In this document: positions 14,712 through 35,052 of the stretch, one piece after another
How positions within the stretch are numbered: position 1 is the first letter of the stretch
Layout of the letters: the number at the start of each line of letters is the position of its first letter
NCBI GenBank assembly: GCA_038884455.1
Contig: JAWABU010000017.1
Span: 1-35,478 of the forward strand
Direction of reading: 5' to 3'
From: Candidatus Thermoplasmatota archaeon
Lineage (GTDB): Archaea > Thermoplasmatota > E2 > DHVEG-1
Length of the DNA: 35,478 bases
The notes under the pieces: model-generated
Told to the model about the DNA's origin: nothing
Seen by the model: only the letters and a program-made list of their open reading frames with translations
Database searches by the model: none
Program-made: the position numbers and the translations under genes

Positions 14712-15650
14712 ATGAATCTTTTTCAGTATACCTATAATTTAGTCAGACAAATTCCCTTTGGGAAATTATCAACGTATGGTGCTATTGCTTGTGCTCTTGG
14801 CGACAGGATTGCATCCCGTGCTGTTGGGTATATGATGCATCAGAATCCTGATCCTGATACGATGCCGTGTTTTAAGATTGTCCATGCAGATGGTCGTCTT
14901 GGTGGTTTTGGCAGGGGGATGCCGGATAAGATTCGTCGACTTACTGCAGAAGGCATCAGTGTGGCCAAAGGGAGAATCGTTGATTTTAACCATGTTTTTT
15001 TTGATGATTTTAAAACCGAGTATCCCCTGCAGCAATGTCAGGCTGCTCAGAGAAAACTTGCACAAAGAGTAGTACTCGATGATGACTTTTCTGAAATATC
15101 CACTGTTGCTGGCATTGATGTAGCGTATCCACAACAGGCATTTGATGTTGCGTGCGGTGCATATGTTCTTATGGAGTATCCAACAGCGGAAATTCTCGAA
15201 ACAGCAACTGTGTTTCAACAAACGTTTTTCCCGTATATTCCATCGTATCTTGCGTATCGTGAGCTTCCGGTAATCGAAGCGTTACTGAAAAAAATAAAGA
15301 CGAAACCATCGGTTTTTCTCTTTGACGGTAACGGTGTTGTCCATCCTAGAGGCTGCGGATTAGCATCCCATGTCGGCGTTCTGTTTAATGTCCCGAGTGT
15401 TGGTGTGGCAAAAAAGCGATATTCTTTTGATATTGAGAAGAATGAGGTGACCTTGGAAAGAAGACCAGCGTGTACAGAACTCGTTCTTTCGGCTCAGGCG
15501 TCAAAACCAGTCATTGTCTCTCCAGGTCATCGGGTCTCATTATCAACGTGTGTTTCTCTGGTGAAACAACTGAGCACGTATAATTATCCTGAACCACTGC
15601 GTCAGGCGCACATTCTTGCGAAAAAAATGTTACTCATGCAGCAGCGGTAA
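14712..15650 (+). CDS. O6-alkylguanine-DNA alkyltransferase-endonuclease V fusion
   Basis: 312 residues, two DNA-repair domains. Residues 1-90 form the DNA-binding/active-site half of O6-alkylguanine alkyltransferase: QIPFGKLSTYGAIA helix-turn-helix, arginine-finger SRAVG and MPCFKIV with acceptor Cys53. The usual PCHR motif is here PCFK, so the activating His is Phe. Residues 110-312 are endonuclease V (cuts next to deaminated bases such as hypoxanthine), with catalytic Asp136 (AGIDVAY), Glu184 (YRELP) and Asp205 (FDGNGVVHPRGCG) intact. A fusion of this order was characterised from Ferroplasma acidarmanus. The start lies 27-28 nt from a TATA box. The 3' end overlaps dtdA by 21 nt tail to tail. 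Confidence 0.94.
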   Translation: MNLFQYTYNLVRQIPFGKLSTYGAIACALGDRIASRAVGYMMHQNPDPDTMPCFKIVHADGRLGGFGRGMPDKIRRLTAEGISVAKGRIVDFNHVFFDDFKTEYPLQQCQAAQRKLAQRVVLDDDFSEISTVAGIDVAYPQQAFDVACGAYVLMEYPTAEILETATVFQQTFFPYIPSYLAYRELPVIEALLKKIKTKPSVFLFDGNGVVHPRGCGLASHVGVLFNVPSVGVAKKRYSFDIEKNEVTLERRPACTELVLSAQASKPVIVSPGHRVSLSTCVSLVKQLSTYNYPEPLRQAHILAKKMLLMQQR

Positions 15651-25274: not shown

Positions 25275-25757
25275 ATGAAAGCAAACCAATTTGTAAAAAA
25301 CCAAGAGGCTGATGTTCTCGGACTACCAATGTATCTAATTATCGTCATGATTGTGGCAGTTGCAGTGATCGCTGCAGTTATTTATATGATACCACAAGGA
25401 AAAAAAACGATTATAGCAACTGTTGATCCAAATGATGCTCTTCTTTCTTCAACTGCTTTTACTTGGGATTCTGCAAATAATTATTGGAAAACTACAACGG
25501 CCACAGTAATAGATGTACTTGTTACCACAAATGATGATTCACGCAAACCAATTGCTAATGCTAATGTTATTATGACTGGTGGTGGAACTGTCCAAAATGG
25601 AAGAACCGATTCCACCGGAAAAGCAACACTTACATTCCCTGCTGGTGCCATAATTGTACAAGCTAACGTTCGAGAATCTTATTTAAAATTATCAGTAAAT
25701 GCTCAAGGATTTGAAAACTACGAAGATGCACAAGCTGTGTTATTATATACTGGGTAA
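25275..25757 (+). CDS. Type IV pilin-like protein with Ig-like head
   Basis: 160 residues from the ATG 8 nt after a strong GGAGGG; an upstream in-frame start at 25233 lacks such a site. The N-terminus is pilin-like: a short charged leader (MKANQFVKNQEAD) followed by VLGLPMYLIIVMIVAVAVIA, so a prepilin peptidase cut before the hydrophobic helix is likely. The head has a beta-sandwich with the SRKPIANANVIMTG...GRTDSTGKATLTFPAG pattern of carboxypeptidase-regulatory/SpaA-type domains. Its closest neighbour is the minus-strand pilin at 26623, with the same layout. The base composition is more AT-rich than flanking genes. It has its own promoter, so it may be the major, strongly expressed pilin. 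Confidence 0.82.
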   Translation: MKANQFVKNQEADVLGLPMYLIIVMIVAVAVIAAVIYMIPQGKKTIIATVDPNDALLSSTAFTWDSANNYWKTTTATVIDVLVTTNDDSRKPIANANVIMTGGGTVQNGRTDSTGKATLTFPAGAIIVQANVRESYLKLSVNAQGFENYEDAQAVLLYTG

Positions 25758-25839: not shown

Positions 25840-26598
25840 ATGCTTGCTGATCATTTCAAACCAAAAACCAATGCAAAAAAGAAACAAAAAGCTGAGGAAA
25901 ACGAATTTGAAGAAAACCTCGAATCAATGAAAACATGGGTACGAAAAATCGAACAAAGCACCCAAAGTATCAGCTCACGACTCGCAGCAATCGAACGGCG
26001 TATATCAGGACGACCAGCTGATACACAATCAATCCTTTCCAATGATGCAACTCAAGGACCAATTCAGCGTATCTTCGCAGAACTCAAAGACGTAAAAAAG
26101 AAAAAAAATCCAGATGAAATCATCCATGTTTTAGACGTGGAGTTTTCATACATCCAAGAAGAAATCATCAAACACCGAGAAGAACTCGACGTACTCAAAG
26201 AACAACTCAGATCAATCACAGATTCATTATCACAGATCAAAGAGAATCTTGATGCACTTCAGACAACGCACATACAACTTGTTCATGATTTGACCAAGCG
26301 TCTTGAAATCATGGAACGTCGTGCACCACCAGTTATGAAACTTGGCTCAAAAGAGATACCAATTGAAATGACCGGGTTGATCGGTGGTATCCTCATGCTT
26401 GCAATAACGTTGATTGTTGTTGCGGGGCAAAAGGATATTTTAATTTCACCGGTGTTTCTTTTTTCGATTAGTTTAATTCTCTTGGGTTCAACAGCATTAA
26501 AAACTATGAAATTCAGTAACTCAACGATTCACGGTTTCCTATCAAGTAAAACAAAGACCTCTGCTGTCGTAGCGAAAAATAACGATACCTACAAGTAA
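25840..26598 (+). CDS. Coiled-coil protein with C-terminal membrane helices
   Basis: 252 residues. A basic N-terminus is followed by about 170 residues of heptad-type coiled coil (MKTWVRKIEQSTQSISSRLA onward; EEIIKHREELDVLKEQLRSI). After an MKLGSKEIPIEMTG linker come two hydrophobic helices (TGLIGGILMLAITLIVVAG and PVFLFSISLILLGSTAL), so it is a membrane-hairpin protein with a long cytoplasmic or external rod. No family is recognised. It sits between two pilin genes in the same locus, so a scaffold or alignment role in pilus assembly is plausible inference; it is not similar in motif to known ArlC/D/E as far as can be seen. Confidence 0.75.
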   Translation: MLADHFKPKTNAKKKQKAEENEFEENLESMKTWVRKIEQSTQSISSRLAAIERRISGRPADTQSILSNDATQGPIQRIFAELKDVKKKKNPDEIIHVLDVEFSYIQEEIIKHREELDVLKEQLRSITDSLSQIKENLDALQTTHIQLVHDLTKRLEIMERRAPPVMKLGSKEIPIEMTGLIGGILMLAITLIVVAGQKDILISPVFLFSISLILLGSTALKTMKFSNSTIHGFLSSKTKTSAVVAKNNDTYK

Positions 26599-26622: not shown

Positions 26623-27075
26623 CTATGGCGAGGGGGGTTTTCGAATAATCTTGATCATATCTGATTGGGAGAATGTATCAAAACAGGGGGCTTTAACCTG
26701 AACATCAAGATACCCTTCATAGACTCCAGGTTCAAGCCAAATATTGTCAATCGTCAGCGTGATTTTTCCATTGGTACCAGTTTCACCGTTGATGACGCTA
26801 TGGAGACCTTTGATGATCACCGATGCACCAGTAATCGGACGGCCAGAACTCTCAGTAACGGTAACTGTAAAAAGAAAACTTTCAGGTCCTGCATCAGTCG
26901 TTGTAAATTGAGCAGCCATGGGAGTAACACTAACGACCATCTTCTTTGGGAACAAACACGGATTCAGGATAAAGCCAAGGATCGCAGTAAGCGCTACAGC
27001 ACCGATAATCAGTGCAACGGTCAGCCGCATCGGAAGGTCAAGCACAGCAGTACAGTTCCCTCTGAAACTTCGCAT
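26623..27075 (-). CDS. Type IV pilin-like protein with Ig-like head
   Basis: 150 residues. The leader MRSFRGNCTA is followed by VLDLPMRLTVALIIGAVALTAILGF, a prepilin-type N-terminus. The head contains FTVTVTESSGRPITGASVII and NGETGTNGKITLTIDN, the same carboxypeptidase-regulatory-like pattern as in the pilin at 25275, and a Cys pair (Cys in LNPCLFP and APCFDTF) that might form a disulfide. The ATG lies 25 nt from the TATA element at 27095-27105, so the mRNA is probably leaderless. It is divergent from the pilin at 27138 and convergent with the coiled-coil gene. Confidence 0.82.
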   Translation of the reverse strand: MRSFRGNCTAVLDLPMRLTVALIIGAVALTAILGFILNPCLFPKKMVVSVTPMAAQFTTTDAGPESFLFTVTVTESSGRPITGASVIIKGLHSVINGETGTNGKITLTIDNIWLEPGVYEGYLDVQVKAPCFDTFSQSDMIKIIRKPPSP

Positions 27076-27137: not shown

Positions 27138-27639
27138 ATGTTATCGGACTTTTACAGGCGATAGTAACGCTGTTCTCGGTATGCCGATGTATCTCACTGT
27201 TGCGCTTATCGTCGCAGCGGTCATCATCGCAACATTTACGATTGGTATCTATAATATGATTACCACAAGTCAAGCACATGCTATAGAATATGAACTATCA
27301 AAAATCGTTGCAGAAGCAGAACACATGTATCAGTATGCCGATGAAGGAAGCATGGTAACCGTTGATGTGACATTTCCCGCTACTCTGAAATATGCTGTGT
27401 TTGGGAGTACGCCATTGCCCGGAGGCCAAGAACCGACAAACCGTCAATTGAATCCAGCGACGGCAAACAATTACTATTATGTTCTCTCTGATGGAACGGT
27501 GTCTCCATTTCATTCACCGGTATGTTTTTCATCAGAAGATCCGACAAAATTTGCAGTTGTCTATGCGGGGAACTATAGAATGTGTCTTGAATTGAAAAAA
27601 ATCGGAGCGGTGAGTTATGTCAGCATTTATCCGCAATAA
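27138..27639 (+). CDS. Type IV pilin-like protein with apparent frameshift near the start
   Basis: The frame encoding SNAVLGMPMYLTVALIVAAVII (prepilin helix) and a 130-residue head, ending VSYVSIYPQ, has no ATG, GTG or TTG before the helix. The ATG at 27138, at the right distance from the TATA box, opens M-L-S-D-F in another frame. Removing one T from the TTTT run at 27150-27153 joins them as MLSDFTGDSNAVLGMPMYL, which lines up with the neighbouring pilin (MRSFRGNCTAVLDLPMRL). Either the run holds a sequencing error, or the gene is truly shifted (phase-variable or dead), or an unusual start is used. The head is beta-rich with two cysteines. It overlaps the next gene by 23 nt. Confidence 0.7.
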
Positions 27640-28693
27640 TCATGGTGTCATGGATTTAACCCTCACGACAATTGGTCTGATGATTGCAGTTGCAATTTTG
27701 CTGACCGCTGTGGTAACGTTTCTTTCTCATAATGATACCCAGCGGCGGATGGAATTAGAAAATGTTGCATCTCACATTGTAACTCTTGTGCAGGCAATGG
27801 ATGCAAAATTTCTGGAAAATACCACGATCTATGTATTACCGGATCTTGGATATGAGTACACAGTGTCGATTTCTACTGAATACGTAACCGTATCTGCTAA
27901 AGGATTTTACAACAACGAACTTTCGGTTAAAGAACGGTTCATCGTTAAACCTTGGGTGCAGGATTCATCTGAATCAACTCTCTGGATTGGAAATACCATC
28001 CATGCTTTTTTAGAAGCTAATCCAACGTATGCCCATGCTGCAACTAGGGATGATCCGATTCAGCGGCAAAACATCTGGACTGCATTACGTACCGATCTTC
28101 AAAATCAACAAATGAACAATCGACAGCGACGGGCAGAACAACCATTACTTCTGACACCAGGTACGCCAGTGATTATCGATAAAACGATTTTACATTTTAA
28201 TCAACCCGAAGAATATCAGGTATGTAGGTTTGGAAAGGAATATACTAATTTTTCAGGAGAGGTTGAAATAATCGATGGAACAATTGTTCGGTTAAGCAGT
28301 TTTATAGGGGATGGTAAAGTTACCTATTCATTTAGCATACCGTATTCTTGTAGTGATATACAACAAGTAGCTGTGAGTATTTTATATAAGGCAGATGGCC
28401 TGATGGATCCCGGCCCGAAACTTACCATTAAAAATTGGATTCAACCATCAAATTTTATTGTCGATGGTCTTGGTTTCAGTGCAGAGTATATTTGGTTTAA
28501 TAGAACACTTACAGAACCTGAGAAATATGTACATCATACGTCAGGTGAAATGAGAATTTCATTAGAAATTACAGGTTTATTCGGAGGAATAATTTCTGAT
28601 GTAAAAATACAGCGCGTATGCGTAAAAGCAACACCAACAGTTACCAGCTGTTCAGATACACAGGAATTTGTTTTTCTCTATCAACACCCTTGA
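27617..28693 (+). CDS. Large pilin-like protein of the pilus locus
   Basis: 358 residues. MSAFIRNNHG then VMDLTLTTIGLMIAVAILLTAVVTFL is a prepilin-type N-terminus, followed by a charged helix (HNDTQRRMELENVASHIVTL) continuous with it, as in pilins, and a long beta-rich extracellular part without a known domain. It contains paired cysteines in its second half. The size suggests a minor or tip pilin rather than the major subunit; inference. The start overlaps the previous pilin gene by 23 nt, indicating co-transcription. Confidence 0.78.
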   Translation: MSAFIRNNHGVMDLTLTTIGLMIAVAILLTAVVTFLSHNDTQRRMELENVASHIVTLVQAMDAKFLENTTIYVLPDLGYEYTVSISTEYVTVSAKGFYNNELSVKERFIVKPWVQDSSESTLWIGNTIHAFLEANPTYAHAATRDDPIQRQNIWTALRTDLQNQQMNNRQRRAEQPLLLTPGTPVIIDKTILHFNQPEEYQVCRFGKEYTNFSGEVEIIDGTIVRLSSFIGDGKVTYSFSIPYSCSDIQQVAVSILYKADGLMDPGPKLTIKNWIQPSNFIVDGLGFSAEYIWFNRTLTEPEKYVHHTSGEMRISLEITGLFGGIISDVKIQRVCVKATPTVTSCSDTQEFVFLYQHP

Positions 28694-28831: not shown

Positions 28832-30826
28832 TTAAGCTACTGGTCGGACAATCGATGAGAACAACATCTGACCGATAATCACCGTCATTGTTAGAACGAT
28901 CACGGCAGTCGGCATCGTCTGGCCCAGGGAATACATAAAAGCGGGTTTATCGTCACCTTCATCAATTCCGTTGGTAAAACGAGTTAGCAGAAATACAAGT
29001 TCAATAATATAAATTCCAACGACGAGAACGAAAAATTCAGGGCGCACATTCTCCAAGGTAAACGACTCAGAAACCGTTGACAACACTGATCCACCGGTAT
29101 CAAACGTATCTGAGGGTATTTTTCCCGCCATTGATGCGATAATATTCGTAATAAGTTTGGTAATCGCAAGAGTAACTCCGGCAATTAACGGGGCAAACAA
29201 TGCAGCAGTACTCCGCAACGTCGACGTCAATGCATACAGCGATTCTCGGATTTTCTTTTCAACTTCTTGGAGTTCTTTTAAATGATCAGCAATTTTAATT
29301 AATGAGATACTGACAGCACGTTGACTTTTCTGAATTCCTTCAACAAATAAGCGCATTATTGCTTTCACTCGATCTGAATATACGTGTTTCAACGAGCCGT
29401 ACTCAGGACTAAATAATGCATCACGGACATTCGTATGCATCGCTGTGAGATTATATCCGGTTTGACTGAACACTTGAGCTATCTTTGCTCCACTCATTGT
29501 ATGCGCAGTATAGACAAAGCTTTCTTCAGGGCTTTTCTCTTCAGCAATTCGCTTTCCAAGGATGTACAATGCATCACCAAATTCACGTTCAATCTGTTTG
29601 ATATCATCTCGAACTTTTTTATAGGGTCGATAAACACTCAAACAATAGGATGTGACGAATGCCGCGATCCCCCAGATGAAAAATAAGGTTACCGGAAAAA
29701 TCGTATTGAGTCCGTCTGGGCTGACAATATATGAAAGGAGTGGAGGTAATGACCCGGTGTCAGTAAAAAACACAGGAAGAAGAATAAAAATAACCCCGGG
29801 AATAGAAACACCGCAACCAATCCCAAGTGAGAGAAGCAAACGTCGTTTCTTATTAATAAAAATCAGCTCAGGATGATAGGATGGTATCTGTGGTGGATTA
29901 AATGTTGCAGGGCGAGATAGAAGCACTTTTCGTGTATAAAAGAAGATAATCAACGGAAGGAGTATATCATACATGATAAAAACTTGGAAAATCGTAATTT
30001 TTAAACCGATGAGGCCAGCTGCCGGGAGCATAGCAACTAATGACAACGGTATCATAATACCAATTGAGTAAATAACCATGGTTGGTTGATGGAGTTTACT
30101 TGCAAACTGATTCATCATATCACGCGTGCCATCAAGTGCAACATCAAGTGATCGATTCAACGTAATAACTCGAGAGGTTTCATCCCGTTCCTGAATAGAA
30201 CTCCGAATTAGATGTAAGGATCGTTTGAAATATTCACTCCAACGACCCCAGAGACTTGCAAAATTTGTCAAAGCATCATCAATTCCATGATACACTCGTA
30301 TCTCCATATCCCAAAGCATCTTGCGTAAATCCTGCGCAAGTGATGTTGATGATTCAGATGCGGCAAACTTAACACTATTTTCAAGATTTGGCACAAGTTT
30401 CAAATACATAACAAGATAACTTAAAATCTCAGGGATGTCTCCCAGTGAATGAATCTTCATGTACTGTGCATAGGTTTTTGGATACGAAGCAATCATATTC
30501 ATCAGAACGACTGGTAAAAAAATCGTAACCACTCCCAATAATAAAAGGGTTATAGGATCAATCATAGTGATATCAAAACCATAGGAGATCACTACAGCAA
30601 AATCAAGAAAAAACATCCCAATAAAACTCAGCAACGCCACCATATATGCAAGGCTCAGCACACTCCGAGGTTCCACCTGCAGACCCGTGAAACTAAGCGT
30701 CTCCATATATTCCTGGGAAAAATATTTTTTTATCTTCTTTTGTGTAGCCTTCGTATCAGGGGCAAGAAACGAACAATATTTCTGGGCAAAGAAACATGCT
30801 CGAACAAACCAATGCTCCTCAGTCAT
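28832..30826 (-). CDS. Pilus assembly platform protein with two GspF/TadC domains
   Basis: 664 residues. Two tandem type II secretion F-type modules: the first has LGDIPEILSYLVMYLKLVPNL, the ENSVKF helix and two following membrane helices (TMVIYSIGIMIPLSLVAMLP and a helix before FFYTRKVLL); the second begins REFGDALYILGKRIAEEKSP with KIAQVFSQTGYNL and ends in a helix cluster (APLIAGVTLAITKLI, a YIIELVFLL helix and the C-terminal helix). About ten membrane helices in all. It is the inner-membrane platform that works with the ATPase next door (10-bp gap, ATPase first in the operon) to push pilins into a filament. The Tad/archaeal FlaJ family is the closest relative. Bacterial Tad systems have this as two proteins (TadB, TadC). 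Confidence 0.87.
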   Translation of the reverse strand: MTEEHWFVRACFFAQKYCSFLAPDTKATQKKIKKYFSQEYMETLSFTGLQVEPRSVLSLAYMVALLSFIGMFFLDFAVVISYGFDITMIDPITLLLLGVVTIFLPVVLMNMIASYPKTYAQYMKIHSLGDIPEILSYLVMYLKLVPNLENSVKFAASESSTSLAQDLRKMLWDMEIRVYHGIDDALTNFASLWGRWSEYFKRSLHLIRSSIQERDETSRVITLNRSLDVALDGTRDMMNQFASKLHQPTMVIYSIGIMIPLSLVAMLPAAGLIGLKITIFQVFIMYDILLPLIIFFYTRKVLLSRPATFNPPQIPSYHPELIFINKKRRLLLSLGIGCGVSIPGVIFILLPVFFTDTGSLPPLLSYIVSPDGLNTIFPVTLFFIWGIAAFVTSYCLSVYRPYKKVRDDIKQIEREFGDALYILGKRIAEEKSPEESFVYTAHTMSGAKIAQVFSQTGYNLTAMHTNVRDALFSPEYGSLKHVYSDRVKAIMRLFVEGIQKSQRAVSISLIKIADHLKELQEVEKKIRESLYALTSTLRSTAALFAPLIAGVTLAITKLITNIIASMAGKIPSDTFDTGGSVLSTVSESFTLENVRPEFFVLVVGIYIIELVFLLTRFTNGIDEGDDKPAFMYSLGQTMPTAVIVLTMTVIIGQMLFSSIVRPVA

Positions 30827-30835
30827 ACGTATCGA

Positions 30836-33052
30836 TCAACCAATATATCGTTGAAACCAGGTATTCCATTTTTTATGAACTTCAGCATAATCAACCGAAC
30901 TGTTTTTTTGTTTTCCTTCTTCGATAAACATCCAGAACGCATTGTTTGCATCACGAACCGATGCTGCTTCTAAAAGATCAAGTCGATTACGGGAAACTGC
31001 AGTATCAACCAATGTTTTCTTGATATCAGTTCGAAGTTTAATATTCTGTAATGCTTTTTCAACACTGATGCCCCATTTCTTTGCAATTCCTCCGAGTAAC
31101 TCAGATTGACCCATATCAAGGATATCGGTTGCACCAAGTCGATCAGTCGCAGTATTGTACACCATGAGATCTCGGAACACCTTATCTGGATCAGGATTTG
31201 TCGTCCATCCGGTTTTCTGTATCTCAGAGATTTGGATCACCCGACGTTTCCGTTCGATACCACCTTCTGCTCGAATCGGAGCAGCAATGATAACTCCATC
31301 AACTGCTTTAAATGAAGTTGCTGGTACTCCAATATCATAGACAACACGTTCATAGACATCACGGGTGGTTGATCCATGAATCGTCCCCATAATTAGGTTC
31401 CCAGCAGCACCGACTCGCATTGCTTCAAATAATACTTTTGCTTCAACGCCACGGACCTCGCCAAGGATGAGAACCGATTCGCCGAGACGGAGTGCTGTTC
31501 GTAACGCATCGGTTGGATCAACTTCACTGGATGCAGAACCAGAGCTAATCGACCGAGTGATCAGTGACTGGATTTTATAGCCACATTGCTGTAACTGTTC
31601 AACGGGAATTTCTGCGGTATCTTCAATGGTTAAAATCCGGAAACGCTGAGGAATTTCAAGCATCATTGCTCCAAGTAATGATGTTTTTCCTGATCCTCGG
31701 CTCCCAGCAACAAGCAATGATGCTTGGCCATCAACAAGAAAACTGAGAAGTCCTGCTGTCTCAGGAGAAATCATATGGTTTGCAATGAAATGAGCAAGCG
31801 TCCATGGTTTCTGTCGATGCCTGCGTAAAGCAAATGCAATTCCTTTCGGCGTGAGTGGGTTTGATATTGCAGCGACCCGAGTGTGATATTTACTCAGATC
31901 CATATCAAGAACAGGTGCTGCCTCTGAAAATGCTCGGCCACTTAACGTTCGAAATCGAGATGCTAATGCATCGATATCAGCATCTGAAAGAAAAATATTC
32001 GATGTGTACTCTTCGCCATCAACCACAATATGTAACGCATTATTTGATACCGGTGCATTCACATAGATATCTTGAATGCGAACATCTGACAGCAGATCTT
32101 CTAAGATACCAAATCCTGCGGTGTATCGTGCAAAAATATCTGCGAGATAATCAATACGTTCTGCAGTAAGGTTCAACGGTGAGGTTTTTGCGAATTGACT
32201 AATGACCTGTCGGCCGAAATGTTGAAAATATTCACGAGCACTTTCTGCATCCATAAACGATGCATCTTTCGGACGATGTCGTGATAAATGCTCTCTAACG
32301 CGTTCAAGCATTAATAGCTCTTCCCGTTGGAGGTCATACTCAGAGGGGACAACAAAATAGAGTTTCTCAGGTCGAGAGCGAAGGAGATATAAGGTGACAT
32401 TGATCGGCCGTCCTTCATGTCGTCGAACTTCATAAGATTCAAGGAACACCGCATCAGCAGGAGGTTCAAGTTGTATATACGAGTCAATAAACCCTGGCCT
32501 GACATACGGCCGGATATACGTCGTGTAAAAAGCATCACTTTTCACAGATAAATTCGTAAGAATCGTCGAAAAATCAGCTTTCTTAATAATTTCCTGAATG
32601 ATTTTTTTAAATTCATCTTCACAGTGGGAACATTCAGGGGCCGTTTGCGATGGTTGAAGGTGAAGTTCGAAAAGTTTCATATACGCAAGGACTGGATCAG
32701 ATTGAGCTAACTCATAAAGAGAATGAATCATCGTACGTCGTTTCTCAATGCATTTTGGACAATTTTGGAGATTTTTCTGAGGATACGCAACATGTTCATA
32801 AGATTCAAGACTGGTAATGAATTTTGATAACTGCTGGATCAACTTCAAATCATTGTTACTGAAAACTTTTACAAATGCATGGTTGAGAATTATTTGATTG
32901 GTACCATGTTCTTGTTGGAGGAGTTTTAATATATTATATCGGCAATTTTTATCTGAAAACGTGGAATTGCCGATGGTGCAATTTCGACAGTTGATGATGA
33001 TAGTTTTACTGTCTGCTTTCCGATGTGTTGTATATTGACATCTTTTGTCCAT
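30836..33052 (-). CDS. Tad/type IV pilus secretion ATPase with cysteine-rich N-terminal extension
   Basis: 738 residues from the ATG at 33052, which lies about 27 nt from a TATA box; ATG 33061 would add three residues. The C-terminal half is a TadA/VirB11-type ATPase: VVDGEEYTS region, Walker A VAGSRGSGKTS (about 452-461), ILTIEDTAEIP Asp box, VLILGEVRGVEAKVLFEAMRVG Walker B and MGTIHGST His box. The N-terminal ~150 residues carry cysteines in CRNC (22-25), Cys37, CPKC (98-101) and CSHC (141-144), likely a zinc or iron-sulfur site. It powers pilin polymerisation on the platform protein encoded downstream; divergent from the HerA-like gene. Confidence 0.9.
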   Translation of the reverse strand: MDKRCQYTTHRKADSKTIIINCRNCTIGNSTFSDKNCRYNILKLLQQEHGTNQIILNHAFVKVFSNNDLKLIQQLSKFITSLESYEHVAYPQKNLQNCPKCIEKRRTMIHSLYELAQSDPVLAYMKLFELHLQPSQTAPECSHCEDEFKKIIQEIIKKADFSTILTNLSVKSDAFYTTYIRPYVRPGFIDSYIQLEPPADAVFLESYEVRRHEGRPINVTLYLLRSRPEKLYFVVPSEYDLQREELLMLERVREHLSRHRPKDASFMDAESAREYFQHFGRQVISQFAKTSPLNLTAERIDYLADIFARYTAGFGILEDLLSDVRIQDIYVNAPVSNNALHIVVDGEEYTSNIFLSDADIDALASRFRTLSGRAFSEAAPVLDMDLSKYHTRVAAISNPLTPKGIAFALRRHRQKPWTLAHFIANHMISPETAGLLSFLVDGQASLLVAGSRGSGKTSLLGAMMLEIPQRFRILTIEDTAEIPVEQLQQCGYKIQSLITRSISSGSASSEVDPTDALRTALRLGESVLILGEVRGVEAKVLFEAMRVGAAGNLIMGTIHGSTTRDVYERVVYDIGVPATSFKAVDGVIIAAPIRAEGGIERKRRVIQISEIQKTGWTTNPDPDKVFRDLMVYNTATDRLGATDILDMGQSELLGGIAKKWGISVEKALQNIKLRTDIKKTLVDTAVSRNRLDLLEAASVRDANNAFWMFIEEGKQKNSSVDYAEVHKKWNTWFQRYIG

Positions 33053-33074
33053 AGAGCACATGCCTTGTGGAACA

Positions 33075-33085
33075 AAATATAAAAA
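33075..33085 (-). promoter_or_regulatory. TATA box of the secretion ATPase operon
   Basis: On the minus strand TTTATATT is centred about 27 nt from the ATG at 33052, so the transcript would be leaderless and start at that codon. Confidence 0.5.
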
Positions 33086-33151
33086 CGTAGCTTGCGATAT
33101 TATTTAATGTTTTCTAAAAAATAAACAAAGAGAGGATTTCGTGATGAAACC

Positions 33152-34459
33152 ATGAGTGACGATCAGCTTTTTTCAGAGAAAACCATTTCTGAAAAACAAT
33201 ATGTACTCGGAAGAAAAGAAAAAACGACTAAAGGTGTACTCAACATTGGGCGATATTATGCACTGGATGGATCATTAGGTGCAAACGTCTATATTGATGT
33301 TCTCCGACCGCATGTTATTTTAATCTGTGGAAAGCGGGGTTATGGAAAATCGTACACAATTGGTGTTTTTCTTGAAGAACTCGAACGACTTGATACCGAG
33401 GTAAAAGAAAATCTCGGTATCGTTGTATTTGATACTCTGGGGATCTTTTGGTCCTCGCGGTATAAAAATCGAGAAGAACTCGAACAGCTTAAAAAATGGA
33501 ATATTCAACCGAGCGCTATTGATATCAGATTGTTAGTGCCGATCAAATTTCTTGAACATTATGAAAAACAAAATATTGAAGCGACAGGTTTTTCAATTCC
33601 TGTTGTGGATCTATCACCATATCATTGGTGTCAACTGTTCAATATCAAACCAACTGATCCTTTAGGAATAGTGGTGACCCGTGCCATCCTGCAATTGCAA
33701 AATCGCCAAACGCCGTTTTCAATTCCAGATATTATCCAGTTTATTCAACGAGATGATAAAAGTGAGGCATCAATGAAAATCGCTGCTGAAAATTTCTTCA
33801 CTATGGCTGATGGCTGGGGAATTTTTGCAAAACAAGGAACTCCGATTTCAGAAATTGTTCAGCGAGGTATGCTATCGATTATCGATTTTAGTCATCTCCC
33901 AAATCAACAGTTGAAAAGTATTACCGCTGCGTTGATCGGTGAACAAATTTTTGAAGCACGGGTGCGTGAACGAAAGATTCACGAGCAGAAAAAAATCGGT
34001 TTCGATGTTGAAGAAAAAGGAATGCCCATGGTACTTCTTGCAATTGATGAAGCACAACTCTTTATCCCAAGTGATGAAAATCTTCTGAGTAAAGAGATCT
34101 TTATCAATGAATGGATGCGACAAGGTCGTCAACCAGGGTTATCATTGATTATGGCAACCCAACGACCAAGTGCACTTGCACCTGAGGTATTATCTCATAG
34201 TGATATTATCTTATGTCATCGTCTCACTGCCCAAGAAGATATCGATGCTTTAAGTCGTATCCGTCCGACGTATATGGCTGGTGATATCAAGGAATCTATT
34301 AAAAAGATTGGAGATGAAAAAGGGGTAGCTCTCATTATCGATGATACTTCTGAATCTTCACACATTCTTAAGATTCGCCCGAGGATAAGCTGGCATGGAG
34401 GTTCTGAATCTCGGGTTGTCGAATCAAATTTAAAAAAAGATCCTGTCGAGAAACTATGA
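33152..34459 (+). CDS. HerA-like hexameric ATPase (COG0433/DUF87 type)
   Basis: 435 residues. Walker A CGKRGYGKSYTIG (59-71), Walker B MVLLAIDEAQLF (about 292-303), MATQRPSALAPEVLSHSDI and CHRLTAQEDIDALSRIRP mark the HerA/FtsK-like superfamily. Only about 50 residues precede the Walker A strand, so the N-terminal HAS barrel of classical HerA is shortened or missing. No NurA nuclease gene lies nearby; the next gene is a pilin-like one overlapping by 4 nt, and a secretion ATPase operon lies upstream, divergent. The role may therefore be in the pilus rather than DNA end resection; this is inference. The ATG is supported by a TATA-like TATTTAAT near 33101. Confidence 0.88.
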   Translation: MSDDQLFSEKTISEKQYVLGRKEKTTKGVLNIGRYYALDGSLGANVYIDVLRPHVILICGKRGYGKSYTIGVFLEELERLDTEVKENLGIVVFDTLGIFWSSRYKNREELEQLKKWNIQPSAIDIRLLVPIKFLEHYEKQNIEATGFSIPVVDLSPYHWCQLFNIKPTDPLGIVVTRAILQLQNRQTPFSIPDIIQFIQRDDKSEASMKIAAENFFTMADGWGIFAKQGTPISEIVQRGMLSIIDFSHLPNQQLKSITAALIGEQIFEARVRERKIHEQKKIGFDVEEKGMPMVLLAIDEAQLFIPSDENLLSKEIFINEWMRQGRQPGLSLIMATQRPSALAPEVLSHSDIILCHRLTAQEDIDALSRIRPTYMAGDIKESIKKIGDEKGVALIIDDTSESSHILKIRPRISWHGGSESRVVESNLKKDPVEKL

Positions 34460-35052
34460 TGCTGCGGAAACACTTTTTCAAAAATGATACTGCTGTTGAA
34501 ATGATCCCAATTCGGATGCTGATCAGCATCGGTGTCATTGCAGCGATCAGCGTTCTCATCGCTGTCGGTTATCAAAATATAAGTATTAGTATTGCTGAAA
34601 ATCAACTTAAAAACGATTTTAATGCGTTGCAATCACAACTTTATTTAATGGTTACAAGTGGTGTACCACGGGATGTGTATGATACTGGTTTAGGAGAAGG
34701 AACCAAGAGAATTCAGACGTTTATAGTTCCTGATTCAATCCAGTATCTCGGTTTTGGGTGTGATCCTGATCCGGACAATAATGGTGTTGTTGATTCGCCG
34801 TCTCTTCTTGAAGATGGAGCGGTTTTTGTTTTCAAAGTAGCTGGAGGAAGCAAACAGGTACTTTGGCTTCCAAAGGATCAGATTCGATTTCGTGAAGGCA
34901 TCTATAATACGCTTTTTGGAAGATGGGATATCAATACTCCAGATCAGGGATATATGATTACTAGCGGAGGAAAAACCAAGATTGTATGTGAACTCGTGAA
35001 ACGATCTGACGAGATGTTCGTATTAATCCAAGCAACTGATAATTTTTCATAA
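34456..35052 (+). CDS. Pilin-like membrane protein cotranscribed with the HerA-like ATPase
   Basis: 198 residues. MMLRKHFFKNDTA then VEMIPIRMLISIGVIAAISVLIAVGY has the same layout as the other pilins of the locus (basic leader, small residue before Val, then a Pro-containing hydrophobic helix). The helix is followed by an amphipathic segment (IAENQLKNDFNALQSQLYLM) and a beta-rich head with a calcium-loop-like DPDPDNNGVVDSP. The start overlaps the HerA-like gene's stop as ATGA, so translation is coupled; a second ATG at 34459 is possible. Probably a minor pilin or pseudopilin that works with the two ATPases. Confidence 0.8.
   Translation: MMLRKHFFKNDTAVEMIPIRMLISIGVIAAISVLIAVGYQNISISIAENQLKNDFNALQSQLYLMVTSGVPRDVYDTGLGEGTKRIQTFIVPDSIQYLGFGCDPDPDNNGVVDSPSLLEDGAVFVFKVAGGSKQVLWLPKDQIRFREGIYNTLFGRWDINTPDQGYMITSGGKTKIVCELVKRSDEMFVLIQATDNFS

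Follow-up and report, generated by a model that had tools for sequence, protein, structure and literature searches.

A short HerA-type ATPase linked to a type IV pilus in Thermoplasmatota and Halobacteriota

A small relative of HerA very probably serves one family of archaeal pilus machines as a conserved and dedicated component. The protein, which we call HerAs, is encoded at positions 33152-34459 (+ strand) of the window, that is, the whole stretch of DNA analysed here, a complete contig of 35,478 bp (C17) from a genome of 1.70 Mb (61 contigs, completeness 97.9%) whose relatives are Thermoplasmatota MAGs. Because HerAs has a HerA fold, belongs to a separate clade, co-occurs with the pilus ATPase TadA, and is repeatedly linked to genes for TadA and TadC, prepilin peptidase and pilin-like proteins, we consider it highly likely that it serves as the dedicated second ATPase of a subclade-4F archaeal type IV pilus machine. 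An ATPase of the DNA-translocase family is here associated with a single kind of pilus across two phyla, and cultured groups, for instance Methanosarcina and haloarchaea, are among the carriers. This bears on two questions, the first being which motor carries DNA when archaea are transformed or exchange DNA, the second whether their pili have a second motor, and it stands, besides CdiP, against the single-ATPase rule for archaeal pilus operons (PMC12448462).

HerAs has 435 residues, and its Pfam match, to the DUF87/HerA central domain at 2.4e-13, passes the curated cut-off, in agreement with the preliminary description of this DNA, which had recognized a HerA-like ATPase at this position. It carries a Walker A motif (GKRGYGKS), a Walker B motif (IDEAQ), a GRQPG motif, and a C-terminal RPRxSWHGG signature. 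Across 60 sequences from Thermoplasmatota and Methanosarcinales, the Walker A (GKRGYGKS) and Walker B (DEA) motifs, an RQGR motif, and most of RPRxSWHGG are invariant or nearly so; judged from these sequences, the catalytic motifs appear intact throughout the family. The earlier remark that the protein is too short to accommodate a HAS barrel also held. The Walker A lysine is residue 66, versus residue 176 in a NurA-linked HerA, the only one measured, and in other NurA-linked proteins the HerA core begins at residue 123-147. In the AlphaFold2 model (pLDDT 88.4) the core is preceded by only a short beta stretch at residues 17-49, with strands at 17-19, 29-36, and 42-49, which do not amount to a HAS barrel; HerAs is thus predicted to lack this domain. 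Foldseek searches with the model returned T. kodakarensis HerA-NurA with double-stranded DNA as the top match (E 1.6e-19, TM 0.67) followed by S. solfataricus HerA, with TM values of 0.61-0.67 across HerA structures, so that the Pfam and structural matches together identify a HerA/DUF87 ATPase core. A hydropathy scan found no consistent transmembrane segment in the family.

Phylogenetic analysis recovered all pilus-linked short HerA proteins, haloarchaeal ones included, as one clade (support 100/98), within which the Thermoplasmatota side (100/99) and the Halobacteriota side (80/87) were distinguished; NurA-linked and long HerA proteins were set off by a 100/100 branch. The first tree included the long-branch NurA-linked sequences L203 and L204, and a second tree without them gave the same result. 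Placement inside NurA-linked HerA, the outcome that the preliminary description had named as contradicting its proposal, was therefore found in neither tree. The search for NurA elsewhere in the genome that it had suggested yielded no match to PF09376; NurA matches among the relatives occurred once in the window's own family (G021) and otherwise in sister families, and at the inspected loci with NurA this gene adjoins a different HerA. HerAs shares with canonical HerA, the partner of NurA in Mre11-Rad50 end resection, a RecA-like core, the DUF87 domain, and the overall fold, but differs from it in having no HAS barrel, no NurA partner, a separate phylogenetic position, and a pilus-locus setting. 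A canonical HerA was accordingly rejected on the grounds of phylogeny, the missing HAS barrel, and the missing NurA, and the NCBIfam HerA equivalog models, with cut-offs of 800 and 970, gave HerAs 39 bits. Other memberships fared no better: NCBIfam scores for CedD (28.3 bits, cut-off 600) and CedB (13 bits, cut-off 700) were far below threshold, by which CedB/CedD or VirB4 membership was rejected, no PilT model was among the NCBIfam matches, which gives no assignment to the PilT/PilU family, and the best score against models of defence HerA (Sir2-HerA, DUF4297-HerA) was 51 against a cut-off of 850.

Upstream of the HerA-type gene lies a 90-bp divergent intergenic region (33062-33151), beyond which the genes for a TadA/VirB11-type pilus ATPase (30836-33061, - strand, 741 aa) and a TadC-type membrane platform protein (28832-30826, - strand, 664 aa) are transcribed in the opposite direction; the HerA-type gene does face a secretion ATPase operon, as had been noted. 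TadA bears an N-terminal cysteine-containing extension in which C25, C28, and C40 are invariant, and fits the description of subclade 4F. The TadC-type protein, for which a Pfam search gave no match, was recognized from its location behind TadA, from the transmembrane segments it contains, and from its conservation. On the other side, the HerA-type gene is followed by a gene for a pilin-like protein of 198 residues that we call PilH (34456-35052, + strand). Its reading frame begins within that of HerAs at the sequence ATGATG, giving the reported overlap of 4 nt (ATGA, 34456-34459, + strand), or of 1 nt should translation start from the second ATG (34459). The model of PilH (pLDDT 87.5) has a 58-residue N-terminal hydrophobic helix (residues 11-68) and a beta-strand head, a predicted fold that is as expected of a pilin; a fold search of this model against the PDB gave no significant match. 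PilH appears to be a distant counterpart of haloarchaeal DUF7311, which is matched weakly by 5 of 17 PilH members (best E 0.002) and at 1e-5 by one counterpart from Halobacteriota.

Past TadC, the locus continues with four more pilin-like reading frames and a coiled-coil protein. The former comprise a protein of 358 residues with an N-terminal hydrophobic segment (27617-28693, + strand), one with the N-terminus DSNAVLGMPMYLTVALIV (27148-27639, + strand, start codon approximate), and two with Ig-like heads, whose N-termini are TAVLDLPMRLTVALII (26623-27075, - strand) and ADVLGLPMYLIIVMIV (25275-25757, + strand). The coiled-coil protein (25840-26598, + strand) has C-terminal membrane segments and weakly matches FlaC_arch and DUF7310, a coiled-coil family encoded between the HerA-type and pilin-like genes of one haloarchaeal locus; a literature search found no papers on DUF7310 or DUF7311. 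The genome encodes one prepilin peptidase (Peptidase_A24), on contig C1, which together with the pilin-like proteins of the locus is what a subclade 4F pilus would comprise. Elsewhere in the window, a reading frame at 14712-15650 reads, by eye from its translation, as joined methylguanine-methyltransferase-like and endonuclease V-like domains.

The 2016 census of archaeal pili describes subclade 4F as having a TadA with an N-terminal cysteine-rich part, which is joined in Halobacteria by a coiled-coil protein (Makarova et al. 2016, PMC4858521). The window's locus resembles this type in its cysteine-rich TadA extension, TadC, several pilins, and coiled-coil protein, and we assign it to subclade 4F by comparing the TadA extension and TadC with the census description rather than by a TadA tree. 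Relative to the main text of the census, which names neither a HerA component nor a PilH/DUF7311 protein, these two are additions, although its supplements may list them. Reported operons for archaeal pili and archaella contain a single ATPase, with the exception of CdiP from Cuniculiplasma divulgatum (PMC12448462). The CdiP pilus is likewise encoded by a Thermoplasmatota operon with two ATPases, but both of these are of the TadA/AapE type, whereas the second ATPase of the window's locus is of the HerA type.

The arrangement is not confined to this contig, so the other outcome that the preliminary description had named as refuting its proposal did not occur either, and the short HerA clade was found next to pilin or TadA genes in two phyla when, as the preliminary description had proposed, other archaea were searched. 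A GTDB scan identified relatives on 242 stretches, the best 80 of which came from Thermoplasmatota MAGs and Methanosarcinales (including Methanosarcina, Methanolobus, Methanococcoides, Methanoperedens, and ANME-2); the clade as a whole spans Thermoplasmatota, Methanosarcinales, other Halobacteriota, and some haloarchaea. In 60 relatives, orthologues with 44-67% identity make up a set of their own, clearly separate from a longer HerA with an identity of about 27%. The head-to-head order with TadA-TadC was present in 30/30 named Thermoplasmatota loci whose contig reaches far enough, a count that includes L080 and leaves out L068, where the contig begins at the HerA-type gene. Seven Methanoperedens loci have the same order, and the Halobacteriota genomes G420, G430, G440, and G450 have a divergent order with up to a few genes between. 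The divergent arrangement of HerA and TadA-TadC thus recurs in two phyla.

Downstream of the HerA-type gene, the window's family has PilH, many members of sister families have a FlaK/EppA-like prepilin peptidase, L194 and L195 have the two together, with the prepilin peptidase gene between those for HerA and PilH, and some members have neither. The proposed translational coupling to the pilin-like gene stands only in part: adjacency is conserved within one family, but the overlap is absent from most relatives, in which the two genes are separated by gaps of +5 to +45 nt (L065 and L068 may have -4). In the sister families, the HerA and prepilin peptidase genes commonly overlap, by -1 to -8 nt. 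Four haloarchaeal loci have a HerA-type gene ahead of DUF7311, with TadA and TadC following in three of them; a DUF7310 coiled-coil lies between the HerA-type gene and DUF7311 in L255. Of 19 haloarchaeal DUF7311 loci inspected, the majority have no HerA-type gene nearby, and in Methanosarcinaceae the HerA-type gene stands alone, outside the pilus locus. A pilin-like reading frame also lies directly 5' of a more distant HerA-type ATPase of 441 aa in one locus (L187:189-1967, G362), a pair which suggests that the pilus linkage may extend past the main clade.

Linkage to TadA is matched by co-occurrence at the genome level. Among 390 Thermoplasmatota genomes, a TadA orthologue was found in 40, and the short HerA was present in 39 of these 40 and in none of the 350 others. 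The single exception, G007, is a MAG of 64% completeness; its TadA stops a single base short of the end of the contig, and the neighbouring HerA site is therefore missing. Of 345 Halobacteriota genomes, 44 are strict carriers of the short HerA and 43 of these have TadA; a TadA orthologue was present in 22/22 genomes checked, Methanosarcinaceae among them. Genus g13 includes both carriers (G029, G035, and others) and non-carriers (G012, G149), which suggests that HerA and TadA are acquired or lost as a pair. For Thermoplasmatota, strict HerA orthologues scored at least 570 bits or were split (next score 297), and TadA orthologues were full or split (next 592 bits, with the N-terminal part unmatched), these bit-score thresholds having been chosen after the score gaps were seen. 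The HerA gap in Halobacteriota is narrow (375 versus 338 bits), and the tree rather than the score consequently separates pilus-linked from defence-linked copies. We report co-occurrence as counts, as Fisher p-values ignore shared ancestry and were not used as evidence. Chance adjacency was rejected given the co-occurrence and synteny in two phyla. Two individual cases were also recorded: L198 (G484) encodes a full short HerA in a genome in which the TadA orthologue was not found, possibly a natural loss, and in L072 (the same gene as L044, G057) the TadA frame is split, through a possible frameshift or decay, and the whole-genome match to it runs across several stop codons.

What HerAs does at the pilus is a matter of several readings. 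Characterised HerA relatives translocate DNA, and by extension from them HerAs may drive ATP-dependent translocation of double-stranded DNA handled by the pilus, in uptake or exchange; it would act as a hexamer, as its family suggests, in the cytoplasm at the pilus base, as its genomic context suggests, and would dock there by something other than a HAS barrel. Our analysis tentatively favours this full reading, a second hexameric pilus ATPase with DNA as its substrate, because two archaea depend on type IV-like pili for transformation while archaea have no known DNA transporter and lack ComEC homologues (PMC10133366), and because Saccharolobus cannot import DNA without CedB and CedD, two ATPases of the HerA type (PMC11868833). 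Methanoculleus and Methanococcus maripaludis are archaea with demonstrated transformation by way of pili. Like HerAs, CedB and CedD of Sulfolobales are HerA/VirB4-type ATPases tied to archaeal pilus-dependent DNA exchange (PMC11868833). They differ in that CedD contains a transmembrane segment as well as a VirB4-like domain at its N-terminus, whereas the HerAs family shows no consistent transmembrane segment and no such domain, and in that their partner is the CedA channel rather than a TadA-type type IV pilus. Counting against this full reading, the HerA-type gene has left the pilus locus in Methanosarcinaceae, G484 has the gene without TadA, and most sampled haloarchaeal DUF7311-TadA loci have no HerA-type gene nearby. 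No DNA-specific partner (channel, nuclease, SSB, or DprA) was seen in the loci. A ComEC-type competence partner was rejected, with no match above the cut-off in the window's genome or in 60 relatives. The preliminary description's idea of a second hexameric ATPase that pumps DNA or protein is strongly supported as regards the pilus link, but pumping through or along the filament finds no channel, nuclease, competence gene, or ComEC to accompany it. A broader proposal, in which the short HerA would fill the place of the cytoplasmic DNA motor still missing from pilus-dependent uptake or exchange in these ComEC-less archaea, as a translocase built into a type IV pilus machine and ancestral to Thermoplasmatota and Halobacteriota, is conceivable yet doubtful.

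The main rival to the DNA reading, and a realistic possibility, is that HerAs works as a second motor of the filament or regulates its assembly, as a functional analogue of PilT that acts on pilins, TadC, or TadA, for example in retraction, pilin extraction, or switching. To our knowledge no HerA-clade protein moves pilins; the strict partner of HerAs is nonetheless TadA and not a DNA gene, the genes downstream of it encode prepilin peptidase and pilin-like proteins, and the HAS barrel has been lost. Archaea are described in the census as having no PilT, and TadA/PilB, PilT, and HerA as belonging to one FtsK-HerA superfamily (PMC4858521), which agrees with such a role, whereas the TadA-type motor CpaF powers both extension and retraction (PMC11300603), so that a separate retraction ATPase is not needed.

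It is less likely, and on balance improbable, that HerAs energises the secretion of protein substrates through the pilus machine in the manner of type IV or type VII coupling ATPases. Type IV filament machines do include protein secretion systems (PMC6668835), and NCBIfam shows a weak similarity of HerAs to T7SS EssC and VirB4; the top of the fold search was HerA, however, and not EssC or VirB4, and pilins aside we noticed no shared cargo gene beside the HerA-type gene.

That HerAs is a DNA-repair or defence HerA merely adjoining a pilus locus is very unlikely, for although its nearest outside relatives include short HerA proteins from putative defence clusters and the gene stands alone in Methanosarcinaceae, the near-perfect co-occurrence with one TadA orthologue in two phyla, even when unlinked, the TadA linkage at all 30 testable named Thermoplasmatota loci, and the lack of NurA in the window's genome strongly disfavour it. 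No defence effector gene was found in the window's locus, and PADLOC returned weak HerA matches only. The defence-type relatives (L212-L216, from G436, G535, G660, G685, and G722) are short, HAS-less proteins of 387-410 aa that score 316-338 bits and share with HerAs a compact architecture, a CGKRGxGKS Walker A motif, and a C-terminal HGG or HAG motif, but they fall outside the pilus clade in the trees and have methyltransferase or PglZ-like neighbours rather than pilus genes. A DUF1156 methyltransferase lies near L212 and a weakly PglZ-like protein near L215, while L213 and L214 have a repeated set of a 1317/1325-aa protein, a 369-aa protein, HerA, and a small protein (of the GNAT family in L213); these clusters give weak mad8 matches. 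A related HerA core is also found in large proteins of 814-1218 aa from other Thermoplasmatota families, in four genomes (L217-L220; G064, G077, G106, and G124).
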